Shown: piece by piece, positions 24,896 to 30,119 of the stretch
How the letters are laid out: every line of letters starts with the position of its first letter
Numbering within the stretch: the first letter of the stretch is position 1
Source: a virus
DNA: 30,119 nt
Virus record (IMG/VR): IMGVR_UViG_3300025671_000338
Coordinates: 1-30,119 of that record
Strand: one strand, 5' to 3'
Translations under genes and position numbers: made by a program
The notes under the pieces: generated by a model
Seen by the model: the letters and a program-made list of their open reading frames with translations, nothing else
What the model was told of the DNA's origin: nothing
Databases searched by the model: none

Positions 24896-26626
24896 ATGAA
24901 CACAGTAGAACTATTACAAAGCGATTTCAAACTGTTCCTACAGGCTCTCTGGAGTGAACTAGACTTACCTTCACCTACCCGTGCACAATACGCTATTGCT
25001 GACTACCTACAACACGGTCCAAAACGTTTACAAATCCAAGCCTTCCGAGGTGTGGGTAAGTCCTGGATTACCGGTGCTTTTGTTCTTTGGACTTTGTTTA
25101 ACGATGCTGAGAAAAAGATAATGATTATCTCTGCCTCTAAAGAACGGGCAGATAACATGTCAATCTTTCTACAAAAACTAATCATTGAGACACCTTGGTT
25201 AGCCCATATGAGACCTAAGTCTGATGACTCTCGTTGGTCCAGGGTGTCCTTTGATATTAATTGTAGCCCTCACCAAGCACCTTCTGTTAAATCAGTTGGT
25301 ATCACGGGTCAGCTTACGGGTAGCCGGGCTGACCTCATGATTCTTGATGACATTGAAGTTCCTGGTAACTCAATGACTGAATTAATGCGTGAAAAACTAC
25401 TTCAACTCTGTACAGAAGCTGAATCTATCCTTACTCCTAAACAGGATTCACGTATTATGTATCTGGGTACACCTCAGACAACCTTTACAATCTATCGTAA
25501 GCTAGCTGAGAGGTCCTACAAGCCCTTTGTTTGGACTGCTAGGTACCCTAGGGCCATTTCTAAATACGAAGGGCTTCTAGCGCCTCAGCTGGCTGAAGAT
25601 TTAGATAATGGTGCCGAACCTTGGGATGTTACTGATCCTGATCGTTTCGACAGCAATGACCTACTTGAACGTGAAGCTTCAATGGGTCGTAGCAACTTTA
25701 TGTTGCAGTTCATGTTAGATACGAGTCTTAGTGATGCAGAAAAATTCCCACTTAAAATGGCTGACCTTATTGTCACCTCTGTTAATCCTAGCTCTGCCCC
25801 TGAAGCCGTTGTATGGTGCTCCGATCCCCAAAATGTCATCAAAGACCTCCCAACTGTTGGTCTTCCTGGAGATTATTTCTACTCTCCAATGCAGCTCCAA
25901 GGAAACTGGGATCCCTACACAGAAACAATCTGCAGTGTTGACCCGTCGGGTCGTGGCTCGGATGAAACGGCAGCAGCTTTTATCTCCCAACGAAACGGTT
26001 TCTTGTACTTGCACGAGATGCGTGCTTACCAAGACGGATACTCAGACCAAACGCTTCTGGACATTCTAAAAGGATGTAAGAAGTATGGCGTTTCTAAACT
26101 TCTTATTGAAACTAACTTTGGTGATGGTATTGTTGCAGAACTTTTTCGTAAACACCTACAACAAACTAAACAATCCGTTGATATTGAAGAGGTGCGTGCC
26201 AACGTACGAAAAGAAGACAGAATCATTGATGCTTTAGAACCTGTTATGAATCAACATCGGTTGGTTATTAACCGTGATGTGATTGAATGGGATTTTAAAT
26301 CTAATTCAGATGCTGCACCAGAAGAACGACTCCTATACATGCTGTTCTATCAAATGAGTAGAATGTGTCGTGAAAAAGGTGCAGTTAGACACGACGACAG
26401 ATTAGACTGTCTTGCACAAGGTGTTAAGTATTACACAGATGCAATGGCAATCTCTGCCTATGAACAAATGAAAATTGATAGGCAACAAGATTGGCAAGAT
26501 ATGAACGAAGCGTGGCTTGATGATCCACAACAAGCAGCTAATCATATGGCATTTGGTATGTCCTTAGAACAACGAAAAAAGGCTAGAATGCTTAATGGTA
26601 AGAAGTCAGTCCCCACCTGGGTGTGA
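24896..26626 (+). CDS. Terminase large subunit, T7 gp19-like
   Basis: 576 residues (T7 gp19 is 586). The ATPase has a Walker A at 49-57 (AFRGVGKSW, K55) and a Walker B LMILDDIEV with D151-D152, followed by coupling motif-like LGTPQTTF. The C-terminal nuclease domain has acidic residues in SVDPSGRGSDETAAAF, IETNFGDG and HDDRLDCLAQG. It cuts concatemers and pumps DNA into the head. The start ATG is 3 nt after the 504-residue gene stop. The last codons lie inside a foldable element at 26616-26670, so the terL 3' end shares bases with an RNA structure or a phage promoter. Confidence 0.98.
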   Translation: MNTVELLQSDFKLFLQALWSELDLPSPTRAQYAIADYLQHGPKRLQIQAFRGVGKSWITGAFVLWTLFNDAEKKIMIISASKERADNMSIFLQKLIIETPWLAHMRPKSDDSRWSRVSFDINCSPHQAPSVKSVGITGQLTGSRADLMILDDIEVPGNSMTELMREKLLQLCTEAESILTPKQDSRIMYLGTPQTTFTIYRKLAERSYKPFVWTARYPRAISKYEGLLAPQLAEDLDNGAEPWDVTDPDRFDSNDLLEREASMGRSNFMLQFMLDTSLSDAEKFPLKMADLIVTSVNPSSAPEAVVWCSDPQNVIKDLPTVGLPGDYFYSPMQLQGNWDPYTETICSVDPSGRGSDETAAAFISQRNGFLYLHEMRAYQDGYSDQTLLDILKGCKKYGVSKLLIETNFGDGIVAELFRKHLQQTKQSVDIEEVRANVRKEDRIIDALEPVMNQHRLVINRDVIEWDFKSNSDAAPEERLLYMLFYQMSRMCREKGAVRHDDRLDCLAQGVKYYTDAMAISAYEQMKIDRQQDWQDMNEAWLDDPQQAANHMAFGMSLEQRKKARMLNGKKSVPTWV

Positions 26627-26764: not shown

Positions 26765-26865
26765 AATGTCCCCGGGAATGGACATTCTGTAAGGACTGGC
26801 TAAAGCCAAACGACACAAAATTTACTTCCACCTGACTCTCTACCTATGATACCGTTAATTTTGTG
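26765..26865 (+). other. Hairpin-rich gap between terL and thyX
   Basis: Perfect hairpin AATGTCC/GGACATT (26765-26771 with 26780-26786). Then a 9-bp inverted repeat CACAAAATT (26814-26822) with AATTTTGTG (26857-26865). I see no gene in this stretch. The second repeat flanks the leader of thyX and may be an operator or an mRNA fold. Confidence 0.6.
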
Positions 26866-26913
26866 AAACAAGCAATCTCTGATTGCGTTACTACTTATTA
26901 TACTGTTCATTCT

Positions 26914-27564
26914 ATGCACACCGCCACCCTCGTACACGTAACACCTGATGCTGAATCCTTGATTGCTTATATGGCACGGGTATCTAATCCAAATAATCAA
27001 GATAACCCCGAATCAGAAAGACTGATTAAATACCTAATTAAACATCGTCATTGGTCACCCTTTGAAATGGTTAATATGTGCGTACAAATTGAGACAACCC
27101 GAAGTGTTGCTGCTCAAATCTTACGTCATAGATCATTCTCCTTTCAAGAATTTAGTCAAAGGTACGCACAGGTGACGGAACCAGCCGCTATCCCACACCT
27201 TAGAAGGCAAGACCTAAAGAATAGACAGAATAGTACTGATGATTTACCAATTAATACAATAAAAGAGTTTAATGTAAAGATTAATAGCTTATTTGACCTT
27301 AGTGAAGCACTATATGAAGAAATGTTGATGGCTGGTGTAGCAAAAGAGTGCGCAAGAGACATCTTACCACTTGCTAGCCCTACTAAACTCTATATGAACG
27401 GTACTCTTCGCTCTTGGTTGCATTATACTGACCTAAGATGCTCCAAAAGTGCGGACGGTACGCCCACCGGTACGCAGTTAGAACATAAACAAATCGCAGA
27501 TCAAGTGAAAAGTTTGATTAAACAGGAGTTTCCTACCGTTTATGCTGCTATGTTCCTTTGTTGA
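26914..27564 (+). CDS. thyX: Flavin-dependent thymidylate synthase ThyX
   Basis: 216 residues from ATG 26914 (MHTATLVHVTPDAESLIAYM), the usual ThyX beginning; the frame is also open upstream to a GTG at 26863, which I reject. The diagnostic ThyX motif RHRxxSxxxxSxRY is complete at residues 71-84 (RHRSFSFQEFSQRY). LRSWLHYTDLRC and the EHKQIA helix near the C-terminus also fit. It converts dUMP to dTMP using FAD and methylene-tetrahydrofolate and would supply dTMP for phage DNA synthesis. Lying behind the late terminator and before a palindrome-rich gap, it is probably expressed from its own promoter or by read-through; no convincing promoter was found. Confidence 0.97.
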   Translation: MHTATLVHVTPDAESLIAYMARVSNPNNQDNPESERLIKYLIKHRHWSPFEMVNMCVQIETTRSVAAQILRHRSFSFQEFSQRYAQVTEPAAIPHLRRQDLKNRQNSTDDLPINTIKEFNVKINSLFDLSEALYEEMLMAGVAKECARDILPLASPTKLYMNGTLRSWLHYTDLRCSKSADGTPTGTQLEHKQIADQVKSLIKQEFPTVYAAMFLC

Positions 27565-27568
27565 TCAT

Positions 27569-27608
27569 GGGCTAACCTGGGTGAAAAATGGTAAAAATTT
27601 GTTAGCCC
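27569..27608 (+). other. Inverted repeat after thyX
   Basis: GGGCTAAC (27569-27576) pairs perfectly with GTTAGCCC (27601-27608), with a 24-nt loop. It lies 4 bases after the thyX stop. It could protect or end the thyX message. Confidence 0.55.
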
Positions 27609-27629
27609 TATCTGCTAATAAGAATTACA

Positions 27630-27659
27630 AATAAATCCCCCCTAGGGGGTCTATTTATT
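27630..27659. terminator. Strong symmetric hairpin, probable bidirectional terminator
   Basis: AATAAAT (27630-27636) pairs with ATTTATT (27653-27659) around CCCCC-TA-GGGGG (27638-27649). A and T flanks on both sides allow termination in either direction. A further ATTACAAAT/ATTTGTAAT pair (27624-27632 with 27678-27686) encloses it. Confidence 0.65.
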
Positions 27660-27716
27660 CCTATGTAATCATGATTGATTTGTAATAAGAATAGCCCGCT
27701 CGCTATGCCTCGTTCG

Positions 27717-27867
27717 TTAACACTCACTCGGCTCCGCTCGCTTAATCGGATTTTATCCGATCATCCTGTCATTTCTGATCGTTTTTACAGTGATTGCCCT
27801 ATGTAAATATTTATTACACGAGATGATTAGGGGAGCGAGCGCGTAGCGCGAGCGGCATAAGTGTTAA
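27717..27867. repeat. Large imperfect inverted repeat in the late-early gap
   Basis: TTAACACT (27717-27724) pairs with AGTGTTAA (27860-27867). CGCTCGCTTAATC (27735-27747) pairs with GATTA-GGGG-AGCGAGCG (27825-27841) apart from a G4 bulge. The span contains ATCGGAT-TTT-ATCCGAT just after the left arm and GCGCGTAGCGCG in the right arm. It is GC-rich against AT-rich flanks. There is no gene from 27565 to 28064. A cruciform, a concatemer or terminus-related site, an origin, or a noncoding RNA are candidates. Confidence 0.6.
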
Positions 27868-27908
27868 ATAGGGGCGACACAGTTGGTAATAGATAGCGGA
27901 GCTATTCC

Positions 27909-27928
27909 TTATTGAGAACGATTCTCAA
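27909..27928. promoter_or_regulatory. Fur-box-like palindrome before the early genes
   Basis: TTATTGAGAACGATTCTCAA contains the inverted repeat TTGAGAA-CGA-TTCTCAA (27912-27928). It is 17 of 20 identical to 3464-3483 and has the 7-1-7 layout of Fur-family operators with one deviation. It lies 80 bases upstream of the -35 of the first early promoter, further than usual for direct repression. Confidence 0.4.
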
Positions 27929-28007
27929 AACATCTGTTTGCCCATATTAGCACATCTTATGCATTATTACCCATTGATGAGTATATTGAGATTGGTGTAA
28001 TCAGGGG

Positions 28008-28036
28008 TTGACTTATAGCGTGTTTGGTGCTATGCT
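28008..28036 (+). promoter_or_regulatory. Sigma70-type promoter, first early gene
   Basis: TTGACT (28008-28013), 17-nt spacer, TATGCT (28031-28036), with TG-C before the -10 (extended -10). It drives the 49-codon gene at 28065, which has its own AAAGGAG ribosome site at 28053-28059. No GTG-N8-CAC site is present here, unlike the next two promoters. Confidence 0.82.
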
Positions 28037-28064
28037 TACAGCATCGACAATCAAAGGAGTGATT

Positions 28065-28214
28065 ATGTTTCATGTATTTATGTTAGACAGTGAGGGCAAT
28101 CCTAAACTGTTAGAGGTATGTATTGATGAGGAAAGAGCTGATGCAGCGGTAGATTTGTGGAGTGAAATGTATCCACACGCTTTGGTTGATTATGTTTACA
28201 AAGACACCAACTGA
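28065..28214 (+). CDS. Small acidic early protein (49 aa)
   Basis: I use ATG 28065 because AAAGGAG (28053-28059) sits 5 nt before it and a promoter with its -10 at 28031-28036 leaves a 5' leader of about 22 bases. The upstream in-frame start at 28008 lies inside the promoter and is rejected. The product (MFHVFMLDSEGNPKLLEVCI, then ERADAAVDLWSEMYP) is acidic, with one Cys. Small acidic early proteins of T7-like phages often inhibit host enzymes, but I recognise no family. It overlaps the next gene by one base (TGATG). Confidence 0.8.
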   Translation: MFHVFMLDSEGNPKLLEVCIDEERADAAVDLWSEMYPHALVDYVYKDTN

Positions 28215-28399
28215 TGACAACATCCCAACGTGTTAAACTCAAAGAAGTCACATTCACGCGCAACAGTAAACCTATGCGTACGTTGATGTGGTGTGATCGT
28301 GTGCCAAAGGGTAAGCGTAACAAACCTGCTAAGATCAATGGCATTCAGCATCATGAAATCAGCAGCAGCGTAGAGCATGTGTACTATCAGCCACTCTAA
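28214..28399 (+). CDS. Small basic early protein (61 aa)
   Basis: TGATG junction with the previous gene, so translation is likely coupled. The 61-residue product is basic (VKLKEVTFTRNSKPMRTLMW, then VPKGKRNKPAKINGIQHHE) with a His pair and a beta-prone start; no zinc site is obvious. It may bind nucleic acid. The codons for residues 12-15 contain the sequence TCACATTCAC (28248-28257), which recurs before downstream genes. The family is unknown. Confidence 0.75.
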   Translation: MTTSQRVKLKEVTFTRNSKPMRTLMWCDRVPKGKRNKPAKINGIQHHEISSSVEHVYYQPL

Positions 28400-28429
28400 T
28401 GAGTCAGATAAGCAGCACTGATGGAAACT

Positions 28430-28478
28430 GTGATCTGGATCACTTGACTTTTGCCTCAACCTGTGCCATACTAAGAGC
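28430..28478 (+). promoter_or_regulatory. Early promoter cassette 1 with CRP-like site and predicted leaderless start
   Basis: GTGATCTGGATCAC (28430-28443) matches TGTGA-N6-TCAC(A) (CRP family; TGTGATCTGGATCACT). It abuts the -35 TTGACT (28444-28449), then a 17-nt spacer with TGC, CATACT (28467-28472), AAGAGC, and ATG at 28479. Expected transcription starts about 6-7 bases after the -10, on the ATG. The site centre is 42.5 bases before the ATG, or 41.5 if transcription starts one base earlier. The spacing equals that of cassette 2. Confidence 0.75.
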
Positions 28479-28736
28479 ATGAACAAAACAACTCAATTCG
28501 CTACTAACTATCCTATGACTTTTCGTTACGCTATTTCTGTGCTTGAAGAACAATATGATGCCATTTATCGTGGTATCAAAACTGTTGATGAGATGTGCTC
28601 AACTCTGACTGATTACATGTCTTGGGAGAATGAACCACTCGACAAAGTTTATCACCAATTCGAGACTAAAGTTGGTGCCAATACTATTGTCGCTGATGAT
28701 GACATTCTGCAACTAGCTAACCACTATGCCAGCTGA
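28479..28736 (+). CDS. Acidic early protein (85 aa)
   Basis: 85 residues, acidic, starting MNKTTQFATNYPMTFRYAIS, with one Cys (DEMCSTL), and helical and beta mixed. There is no Shine-Dalgarno sequence: the ATG is separated from the -10 box by only AAGAGC, so the mRNA probably starts at the ATG and is leaderless. The family is not recognised. It lies in a run of small genes between the late-operon end and an ArdA-like gene. The early, host-directed role is inference from position, size and its own promoter. Confidence 0.85.
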   Translation: MNKTTQFATNYPMTFRYAISVLEEQYDAIYRGIKTVDEMCSTLTDYMSWENEPLDKVYHQFETKVGANTIVADDDILQLANHYAS

Positions 28737-28740
28737 CAAG

Positions 28741-28789
28741 GTGCACACTACCACTTGACTTTCACCTGATTTTCTGCCATACTAAGAGC
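28741..28789 (+). promoter_or_regulatory. Early promoter cassette 2, copy of cassette 1
   Basis: GTG (28741-28743) N8 CAC (28752-28754), TTGACT (28755-28760), 17-nt spacer with TGC, CATACT (28778-28783), AAGAGC, ATG at 28790. Distance from GTG to ATG is 49 in both cassettes. The CRP-like half-sites are weaker here because the inner bases differ. About 20 bases around the -10 and start codon are shared with cassette 1. Confidence 0.72.
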
Positions 28790-29011
28790 ATGACACAAAC
28801 ACAGTACACACGACAACAACTCATCGACGCACTTACTCACGAGTATGACTATCTTTGCCACGATGATCCTTATGATCCCGAAGATCCTTATGATATGACA
28901 GTTCCTGAATATGTAGAGTATCTCAGCTCATTATCTATTGAGCAACTTATCGACGAGACATCAACCGGTGACGGTTACACTCTCGATGAGTATATGTTCA
29001 ACCACAATTGA
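28790..29011 (+). CDS. Very acidic early protein (73 aa)
   Basis: 73 residues with many Asp/Glu (HDDPYDPEDPYDMTVPEYVE), a DNA-mimic-like composition; ends LDEYMFNHN. It starts at the ATG of promoter cassette 2 with no ribosome site, so again leaderless by prediction. Acidic early proteins of T7-like phages (for example Ocr, gp0.3) block host restriction by imitating DNA charge, but this one shows no sequence similarity I can claim. The function is unknown. Confidence 0.8.
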   Translation: MTQTQYTRQQLIDALTHEYDYLCHDDPYDPEDPYDMTVPEYVEYLSSLSIEQLIDETSTGDGYTLDEYMFNHN

Positions 29012-29021
29012 TATCTACACT

Positions 29022-29058
29022 GAGACATTCATGTCTCTCTGTAGGTTTCATACCTACA
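29022..29058 (+). other. Two adjacent perfect hairpins in an early-gene gap
   Basis: GAGACAT-TC-ATGTCTC (29022-29037) and TGTAGGT-TTCAT-ACCTACA (29040-29058), 7 bp each. A T-rich but weak tail follows. They may end the acidic-gene message or mark an RNase site before the KTSC gene at 29088. No other gene lies in the gap 29012-29087. Confidence 0.6.
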
Positions 29059-29072
29059 CTTTATCCACCTTA

Positions 29073-29087
29073 TTTTCACATTCACAA
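29073..29087 (+). promoter_or_regulatory. CACATTCAC leader motif, copy before KTSC gene 1
   Basis: TTTTCACATTCACAA lies directly before ATG 29088, where no Shine-Dalgarno sequence is present. Related copies are at 29338-29351, 29621-29636 and 30060-30070, all upstream of gene starts, and one inside the gene at 28248-28257. Confidence 0.55.
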
Positions 29088-29330
29088 ATGTTCATCAAAC
29101 GTACTTCTGCTGCTATTCACTGCATCAGCACCGACTTTCTCAACGGTGTAGTTGATGTTATGTTTAGCAACGGTAGTGTTTATCGTTATTCCAATGTGTC
29201 TCGTCGTGCTATTGCTAACCTGCAATTGCAGCGTAACATGTCACTTGGTTTCTGGGTTAACAACAACTTGCTTGGTAACAAGCGTGTCAAGTCAACTCAA
29301 ACCTATGGTGCAATCCCTGCGATTGCTTGA
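29088..29330 (+). CDS. KTSC-domain-like small protein 1 (80 aa)
   Basis: I use ATG 29088, directly after the leader motif. The longer frame to 28938 overlaps the previous gene and is rejected. The product (MFIKRTSAAIHCISTDF...) has the KTSC pattern: a beta stretch with V-V-D-V-M-F-S-N-G-S-V-Y-R-Y-S-N-V, then a helix (RRAIANLQL) and S-L-G-F-W-V-N-N. KTSC is a small widespread domain of uncertain biochemical role, often in phages and mobile elements. It is followed by a second, similar gene. I treat the fold as likely but not proven. Confidence 0.85.
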   Translation: MFIKRTSAAIHCISTDFLNGVVDVMFSNGSVYRYSNVSRRAIANLQLQRNMSLGFWVNNNLLGNKRVKSTQTYGAIPAIA

Positions 29331-29337
29331 TAACTAG

Positions 29338-29351
29338 TTTCACATTCACAC
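29338..29351 (+). promoter_or_regulatory. CACATTCAC leader motif, copy before KTSC gene 2
   Basis: TTTCACATTCACAC, 23 bases before ATG 29375. No Shine-Dalgarno sequence is seen in between, only a pyrimidine-rich stretch. Confidence 0.5.
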
Positions 29352-29374
29352 ACTTTTTTCTACCCATTTTCATC

Positions 29375-29599
29375 ATGTTCTTTAAGCCTAACACCATCAA
29401 TTCTTCTATCGTTCGTAACATCTTGTTGAATCCTTCTACCAATCAAGTGATTGTTCAGTTCAAGAATAACAGCAAGACTTATCTCTATGACAACGTAAGT
29501 GTTGATGCAATTACTGATGTTTTCTTTGGTGAGATTGAGTCGTTTGGTAAGTTTGTCAATGCATATTGCAAACCCAATATGACAACCGTTGTCGGCTGA
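29375..29599 (+). CDS. KTSC-domain-like small protein 2 (74 aa), paralogue
   Basis: Start chosen at ATG 29375; the frame is open 16 codons upstream, but that part is pyrimidine-rich leader. The product begins MFFKPNTINSSIVRNILLNP and has the same layout as its neighbour: a beta core QVIVQFKNNSKTYLYDNVS, then VDAITDVFF, E-I-E-S-F-G-K-F-V-N. The two genes probably arose by tandem duplication and then diverged strongly. It may work as a pair with KTSC gene 1 or replace it. Biochemical role unknown. Confidence 0.82.
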   Translation: MFFKPNTINSSIVRNILLNPSTNQVIVQFKNNSKTYLYDNVSVDAITDVFFGEIESFGKFVNAYCKPNMTTVVG

Positions 29600-29620
29600 A
29601 TTTTTGTCACTTATTAAACA

Positions 29621-29636
29621 ACACATTCACAACACT
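29621..29636 (+). promoter_or_regulatory. CACATTCAC leader motif, copy before the ArdA-like gene
   Basis: ACACATTCACAACACT lies immediately before ATG 29637, again without a Shine-Dalgarno sequence. Confidence 0.5.
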
Positions 29637-29981
29637 ATGCTTCTTGCTCCTTCCATGTCTGACTATCAACAACGCGTGTCTGAGTTGTTTGATACTATTG
29701 ATCCTGATCGTATCGAGCACTTTATCAACGAGCTCGAAGGTTGGGGTATCGATAGTGAAGAGCAACTCGACGATGCTTACTATGGTTGTTATCCATCAAC
29801 TGACGGATTTGTCGAGGATTTGTGTGAAGATTGCTATGCAGATGTGATTCGTTCGATGCCTACATTCATGCAAACTGCACTCGATTATGAACTCATGTGG
29901 CATCAATCCTTCCAGCATGATTTCTTTACTATTTACGATCGTGATTCTGGTGATTACTATTTCTTCAATCGTAACTTCTGA
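29637..29981 (+). CDS. ArdA-like antirestriction protein candidate (114 aa)
   Basis: 114 residues from ATG 29637; an upstream TTG (29589) and an internal ATG (29655) are alternative starts. It is strongly acidic. The C-terminal half shows a pattern like ArdA ends: EEQLDDAYYGCYPSTDGFVE, D-x-x-x-D, a P-x-F-M-Q-x-A-L-D-Y-E-L segment and FFTIYDRDSGDYYFF. ArdA-type proteins mimic bent DNA and inhibit type I restriction enzymes. The match is by eye and covers only the C-terminal part of classical ArdA, which is about 165 residues. It could be an unrelated acidic early protein. It is followed by a terminator. Confidence 0.8.
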   Translation: MLLAPSMSDYQQRVSELFDTIDPDRIEHFINELEGWGIDSEEQLDDAYYGCYPSTDGFVEDLCEDCYADVIRSMPTFMQTALDYELMWHQSFQHDFFTIYDRDSGDYYFFNRNF

Positions 29982-30008
29982 TCATTAGTTATTAGCTACA
30001 ATTACAAT

Positions 30009-30046
30009 CCGTCGCTATTAACAACATTTAGCGGCGGTATTTTTTT
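30009..30046 (+). terminator. Rho-independent terminator after the ArdA-like gene
   Basis: CCGTCGCTA (30009-30017) pairs with TAGCGGCGG (30029-30037) with one G-T wobble and an 11-nt loop, followed by TATTTTTTT. It ends the KTSC/ArdA-like transcript. Confidence 0.88.
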
Positions 30047-30059
30047 GTGACTCACAGTC

Positions 30060-30070
30060 ATCACATTCAT
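30060..30070 (+). promoter_or_regulatory. CACATTCAT leader motif, copy before the last gene
   Basis: ATCACATTCAT, 20 bases upstream of the start at 30091. Here a Shine-Dalgarno-like AAGGACG (30074-30080) also follows. Confidence 0.45.
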
Positions 30071-30090
30071 CCCAAGGACGCAGAATCAAA

Positions 30091-30119
30091 ATGCAATGGT
30101 CTGAAACTAACATCATCCT
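30091..30119 (+). CDS. Start of a further gene, cut by the window end
   Basis: ATG at 30091 opens a frame M-Q-W-S-E-T-N-I-I that runs off the window. It is preceded by AAGGACG (30074-30080) and follows a terminator, as expected for the first gene of a new unit. Only nine complete codons are visible, so the product cannot be named. Confidence 0.45.

Follow-up and report, generated by a model that had tools for sequence, protein, structure and literature searches.

What drives two small genes that stand close together in the early region of a cyanophage, each behind the same short sequence? The stretch of DNA considered here (the window) is a virus record of 30,119 bases, a fragment of a T7-like cyanophage close to Synechococcus phage S-RIP1 (Autographiviridae, Kajamvirus; host Synechococcus WH8101), which matches the right part of the window at 88% over 82% of positions 27400-30119. 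An original prediction, made from the letters of the window, had placed two promoter cassettes here, with leaderless messages and a host regulator of the CRP family, possibly NtcA, acting on both. We propose that the two sequences, hereafter cassettes A and B, are copies of a modular cyanophage early promoter that is read by the host polymerase, gives leaderless messages and carries exchangeable upstream elements. The probability that we attach to this reading is about 0.78.

A promoter core shared by T7-like and T4-like cyanophages

Both cassettes are positioned just past the packaging genes, in the early region (Table 1), and the corresponding region of S-RIP1 lies upstream of the T7-like RNA polymerase gene. 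They were found where they had been predicted, with 49 bases from GTG to ATG in each (28430 to 28479; 28741 to 28790) and with the expected spacing of -10, AAGAGC and ATG. The two share TTGACT-N17-CATACT-AAGAGC-ATG with 0 mismatches. TTGACT-N17-CATACTAAGAGCATG has exactly two matches in the window, both without mismatch, and 100 dinucleotide shuffles gave 0. A generic promoter scan around the cassettes returned no more sites than it did in shuffled sequences; the case depends on the conserved composite and not on sigma-70 matches. CATACT agrees with TATAAT at 4 of 6 positions. Upstream lies a sister early promoter, P1, which is leadered: a ribosome binding site, AAAGGAG, is found at 28053-28059 and an ATG at 28065.

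Table 1. Features of the window discussed in the text. TSS, transcription start site; PWM, position weight matrix trained on host csoS1 sites.
Feature	Positions	Strand	Remarks
Large terminase ORF	24896-26626		
TATTAGCACATCTTATG, best csoS1-operator match of the window	27945..27961	+	PWM 14.7, rank 1; centre -90 from predicted TSS of P1
P1, leadered sister early promoter	28008-28043	+	TTGACT-N17-TATGCT-TACAGC-A(+1)
Box 2-like element of cassette A, GATAAGCAGCACTGATG	28407..28423	+	GATAAG-N5-CTGATG; PWM 14.4, rank 2/30,103; centre -64 from predicted TSS
CRP-like palindrome of cassette A, TGTGATCTGGATCACT	28429..28444	+	at the Box 1 place; one mismatch to TGTGAN6TCACA
Cassette A	28430-28481	+	
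Promoter core A	28444..28472	+	TTGACT (-35), 17-nt spacer with extended -10 TG, CATACT (-10) at 28467-28472
AAGAGC then ATG, cassette A	28473..28481	+	predicted TSS (+1) = A at 28479, leaderless
Gene A	28479..28736	+	85 aa
Cassette B	28741-28792	+	
Box 1 of cassette B, GTGCACACTACCAC	28741..28754	+	family STGTCCACTACCNC, -49 to -36
Promoter core B	28755..28783	+	TTGACT, 17-nt spacer with TG, CATACT at 28778-28783
AAGAGC then ATG, cassette B	28784..28792	+	predicted TSS = A at 28790, leaderless
Gene B	28790..29011	+	73 aa; PHROG 734 (function-unknown family)

Comparison of the proteins of genes A and B agrees with the earlier statement that they are unrelated. The former matches no Pfam, PHROG or NCBIfam family above cut-off; gene B is the orthologue of a conserved cyanopodovirus early gene. 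At the place of cassette A in S-RIP1 (L003:7236-7345), the -35 and -10 are kept and the ATG and gene A are lost, a natural deletion. Between the terminase gene and P1 (window 26863-27950) we also noted GC-rich repeats (gagcgagcgcgtagcgcgagcgg) and a terminator-like hairpin at 27635-27650; right-end genes pass here directly into left-end early genes, like joined genome ends.

When viral contigs were scanned for the core with no ATG required, 19 contigs with 17 distinct promoters were recovered, and an ATG stands exactly at the +1 place, 6 nt after the -10, in 16 of them. Scanning IMG/VR for TTGAC-N15-TGCCATACT-N5-CATG recovered the core in 95 contigs. Clustered together with the window and other loci, these gave 79 distinct cassettes, a minority of which, in unrelated surroundings, are probably chance matches or belong to other phages. 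The cassette is present in T7-like and T4-like cyanophages ahead of many unrelated genes, and the same genes occur elsewhere without it, as expected of the portable promoter that had been postulated. Genes behind the cassette include the gene B family, two families whose proteins begin with MNK...RFNS and with MNKQTFRFVLTRT, respectively, and, in T4-like phages, DUF6267 / PHROG 455. In the T4-like phage S-BM3, the gene start annotated by the depositors is the cassette ATG, and a weaker form of the cassette occurs in S-RIM12 and ACG-2014g. Homologues of gene B are found both with and without the cassette, the copy in the T4-like phage S-RIM2 being without.

The features of a sigma-70-type extended -10 promoter (TTG, TG and -10 AT..T) are each present in 100% of the 52 other leaderless cassettes compared, a figure owed in part to how these were selected. 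Of the unit first described, AAGAGC varies (TACAGC, AACAGC, TAACGC, TAGTTC, ACGTAC and others in relatives), and GTG-N8-CAC is not the conserved unit, as set out below.

The ATG at the predicted transcription start

Leaderless cassettes have the A of ATG as the seventh base past the -10, and a purine occupies this place, +1, in 28 of 29 leadered sister promoters. Where sister promoters lack an ATG at +1, the start codon comes 22-28 nt downstream, with a GGAG ahead of it in several. No Shine-Dalgarno sequence precedes the cassette ATG in any of the 79 distinct cassettes, and the claim that the cassettes are without a ribosome binding site stands. Substitutions in codons 2-14 after the cassette ATG fall mostly at third positions in one family (156/237) and often in another (106/244), the pairs not being independent; this bias supports a predicted start of both transcription and translation at the cassette ATG. 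Leaderless transcription by the host RNA polymerase, as originally foreseen, is the best reading of these observations, the start being placed by the distance between -10 and ATG.

We suggest that, on entry, P1, A and B would be read by host RNA polymerase carrying its main sigma factor, which would recognize TTGACT and the extended -10 (TGcCATACT) at a time when the phage has yet to make an RNA polymerase of its own. Transcription would begin at the A of ATG, and the resulting leaderless mRNAs of A and B, encoding small proteins of unassigned function, would be translated from their 5'-terminal AUG; the exchangeable upstream elements would set promoter strength or conditions. Host-type early promoters of T7-like phages are likewise read by the host polymerase and precede the phage RNA polymerase gene in the early region. 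The cassettes differ from them by the extended -10 with CATACT, the leaderless ATG and the conserved upstream boxes.

Leaderless messages have precedents, among them lambda cI transcribed from PRM. They also occur in cyanobacteria, with 19 such TSSs in Synechococcus elongatus UTEX 2973 (PMC6091082), and are considered likely in Prochlorococcus (PMC5607370). As in lambda cI and S. elongatus, the TSS (here predicted) coincides with the A of AUG and a Shine-Dalgarno sequence is missing; the difference is that here a whole family of phage promoters keeps the spacing between -10 and AUG constant.

Alternatively, the leaderless messages could go unused, the first AUG being merely start-site sequence, with translation from an inner AUG (M13 in gene A) or from a longer P1 transcript. 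Homologues of gene A in other viral contigs are without the cassette and align only from M13, which speaks against the leaderless reading for this gene and leaves room for translation from the inner AUG. Moreover, there is no + strand terminator-like site between positions 27651 and 30119, and P1 transcripts probably continue through both A and B. However, the third-position bias begins directly after the cassette ATG, and gene B and its homologues are without any other suitable start near the 5' end. Inner AUGs also lack a preceding Shine-Dalgarno sequence, save in two distant relatives (L086, L087) where the inner ATG has an SD-like sequence. We consider this alternative unlikely; gene A of the window appears to be another gene body to which the cassette and its first codons have been joined.

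It is about equally unlikely that the main reason for keeping the conserved stretches is the homology they offer to gene shuffling between phages, as has been proposed for the PeSL of T4, with regulation secondary. Recurrence of the same stretch ahead of unrelated genes in both T7-like and T4-like cyanophages would fit such a role, as would the core of copy A that outlived its gene in S-RIP1. Conservation nevertheless follows the pattern of a promoter (-35, TG, -10, +1) while the spacer varies, and the cassettes have no stem-loop terminator. PeSL cassettes of T4-type phages, as presented in PMC4503421 (citing Arbiol 2010 and Comeau 2014), likewise consist of a repeated, travelling, host-type early promoter before small unrelated early genes. 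Compared with that description, the present cassettes lack the stem-loop or terminator, include the start codon, extend to T7-like phages and have upstream boxes of their own. Membership of the PeSL class was rejected on the lack of a terminator-like site downstream of 27651 noted above.

Box 1 and the CRP-like palindrome of cassette A

Returning to the modular promoter, its first upstream element, Box 1 (STGTCCACTACCNC), is conserved at -49 to -36 in the base matrix of the 52 other leaderless cassettes; this set was partly fetched via Box 1, whereas the 19-contig and 95-contig scan sets were not. Cassette B has Box 1 (STGTCCACTACC) as its upstream module, which in our model would act abutting the -35. 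Box 1, and not GTG-N8-CAC, is the real conserved upstream unit of the cassette-B type: GTG...CAC recurs in 2 of 77 other cassettes, and the A of 'CAC' falls on a free position, -37 (A 10%, C 12%, G 50%, T 29% in the 52 cassettes). At the Box 1 place, cassette A carries GTGATCTGGATCAC, a good CRP-type palindrome whose centre lies at -42.5 from the A of ATG; the element is present as described and is not shared by the family. The S-RIP1 cassette at place A has Box 1 and not the palindrome.

Binding of a CRP- or NtcA-type host protein to GTG-N8-CAC at about -42 in both cassettes, with class II activation, is very improbable: the palindrome of cassette A is near Synechocystis SyCRP1-type sites such as TGTGATCTGGGTCACA (PMC2633013), and CRP-type HTH proteins, NtcA included, are found in 41 of 41 host-family genomes tested, but the TGTGA-N6-TCAC palindrome expected for class II CRP promoters occurs in 0 of 77 other cassettes, cassette B is not CRP-like, S-RIP1 carries Box 1 instead, GTG-N8-CAC shows no enrichment over the window (4 sites vs 8.7 expected), the -35 is already near consensus, and crp is missing from several marine Synechococcus, having been lost in WH8102, WH7803, CC9902 and RCC307 (PMC2633013). 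GTA-N8-TAC, looked for as the signature of NtcA-activated promoters, is absent at cassettes A and B. We rejected CRP/NtcA as the common regulator on the family-wide counts of GTG...CAC and of the palindrome; cassette A may have a private CRP site.

Box 1 as a host element was likewise rejected. Scanned for exact copies, 84,980 species genomes gave four matches, none of them in marine Synechococcus or Prochlorococcus, and in 201 host-family genomes Box 1 showed no excess over the reversed control.

Box 2 and a candidate carboxysome operator

Box 2 (GATAAG-N5-CTAATC) is an alternative upstream module to Box 1. GATAAGCARTACTAATC stands 9 nt before the -35 in the leadered first promoters of many cyanopodoviruses and in leaderless DUF6267-type cassettes of other viral contigs. 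The Box 2-like element of cassette A agrees with the phage consensus at 14 of 17 positions and lies 11 bp farther from the -35 than usual. The module of cassette A would accordingly be of the Box 2 type and csoS1-operator-like, placed one helical turn upstream of the usual position, with the CRP-like palindrome at the Box 1 place.

A search of the 201 host-family genomes with Box 2 led to sites beside csoS1, which opens the alpha-carboxysome operon; this gene and its divergent neighbour were named by their sequences. Exact GATAAGC-N4-CTTATC sites lay just upstream of csoS1 in 13 of 20 cases examined, with none for the reversed control. In a gene-based search, the palindrome ATAAG-N5-CTTAT was found 124-129 nt before the csoS1 ATG in all 26 Cyanobiaceae genomes examined (among them L204, L201, L205, L209-L213, L215, L216 and L219-L222), and shuffled regions seldom scored as high. 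The palindrome is not a terminator, because the neighbouring gene is divergent in L201 and L204, and we regard it as a candidate operator of the alpha-carboxysome operon.

A PWM trained solely on the 26 host csoS1 sites was run over the 30,103 positions of the window. Its two highest scores fell at 27945 (14.7) and 28407 (14.4), upstream of P1 and of cassette A, the third being 10.7; a dyad of the host Rubisco/carboxysome promoter type, sought as the mark of an RbcR/CbbR (LysR-type) operator, is present at these two positions. The P1 site TATTAGCACATCTTATG is identical in S-RIP1, where it is the best match in 44.9 kb. Applied to 90 non-redundant viral loci, the matrix gave 1.25 matches per kb within 100 nt upstream of promoter cores vs 0.029 elsewhere, a 42-fold enrichment, and permuted matrices gave 0 matches before the cores. 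P-SSP7 and Syn5 have no PWM site scoring 10 or more; the csoS1-like element is therefore not in every T7-like cyanophage.

Which protein might bind these sites? Exactly one LysR-type gene is found in 31 of 41 host-family genomes, which makes its product the candidate binder. This protein is most likely RbcR; NCBIfam gives it no name, and CbbR, one of its better matches there, stays below cut-off. The -64 centre of the cassette A element fits LysR-type proteins generally, and the usual Box 2 centre in other phages, -53, is closer than typical. The csoS1 dyad has a 5-N5-5 layout, as does the RbcR consensus ATTA(G/A)-N5-(C/T)TAAT in PMC13249358 (citing Bolay 2022), and the P1 site, at -90, fits the distance reported there for RbcR activation. 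Compared with the RbcR operators, half-sites here read ATAAG/CTTAT or CTAAT, and the other phage sites lie at -53 or -64. The published consensus alone was rejected as a discriminator, 8 places in the window matching it at 9 of 10 positions; only the csoS1-trained matrix discriminates.

At P1 and A, both with csoS1-like operators, a LysR-type protein would activate transcription or merely tune it. The earlier suggestion of a link between early genes and a host carbon regulator may hold in an altered form, through an RbcR-like protein and not through the CRP family. We tentatively extend this, at somewhat less than even odds, to a scheme in which early cyanophage genes stand under the host carboxysome/Rubisco operator and the single LysR-type regulator (RbcR), sensing the state of carbon fixation, gates the start of infection. 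The operator would then be one of at least two interchangeable modules on the leaderless core.

Host PhoB sites in cyanophage promoters (S-PM2d, PMC10976474; P-SSM2 pstS) likewise place a phage gene under a host nutrient-regulator operator. The candidate operator here differs in being of the LysR type and csoS1-like, and the genes concerned are general early genes of unassigned function, not phosphorus-related ones. Taken singly, portable early promoters (PeSL), leaderless mRNAs and host-regulator sites in cyanophages (PhoB, PMC10976474) have all been described. A literature search that took in few subscription papers turned up neither the combination of the three in one family nor the csoS1-like operator.

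Whether a cyanophage infection gets under way depends on early transcription, and little is established about how it senses the state of the host. With its swappable boxes, the leaderless module common to T7-like and T4-like cyanophages is compact in design and open to test. Should the csoS1-like operator prove functional, the timing of infection would be linked to host CO2 fixation, the PhoB precedent would be extended to a core carbon regulator, and an operator of carboxysome control would be defined in marine picocyanobacteria.

Two minor observations concern the neighbourhood of these boxes. In several host genomes (L207, L208, L223), GATAAGC-N4-CTTATC is also found near a ferredoxin gene, either beside a prmA-like gene or directly behind it, where it could be a terminator or an operator. 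DUF6267 / PHROG 455, the T4-like gene commonest behind the cassette (L007:3051-3920; L039, L042, L044, L111, L115 and others), has Box 1 upstream in some copies and Box 2 in others, and its product contains a K(I/W)DG motif that recalls motif I of nucleotidyltransferases/ligases.
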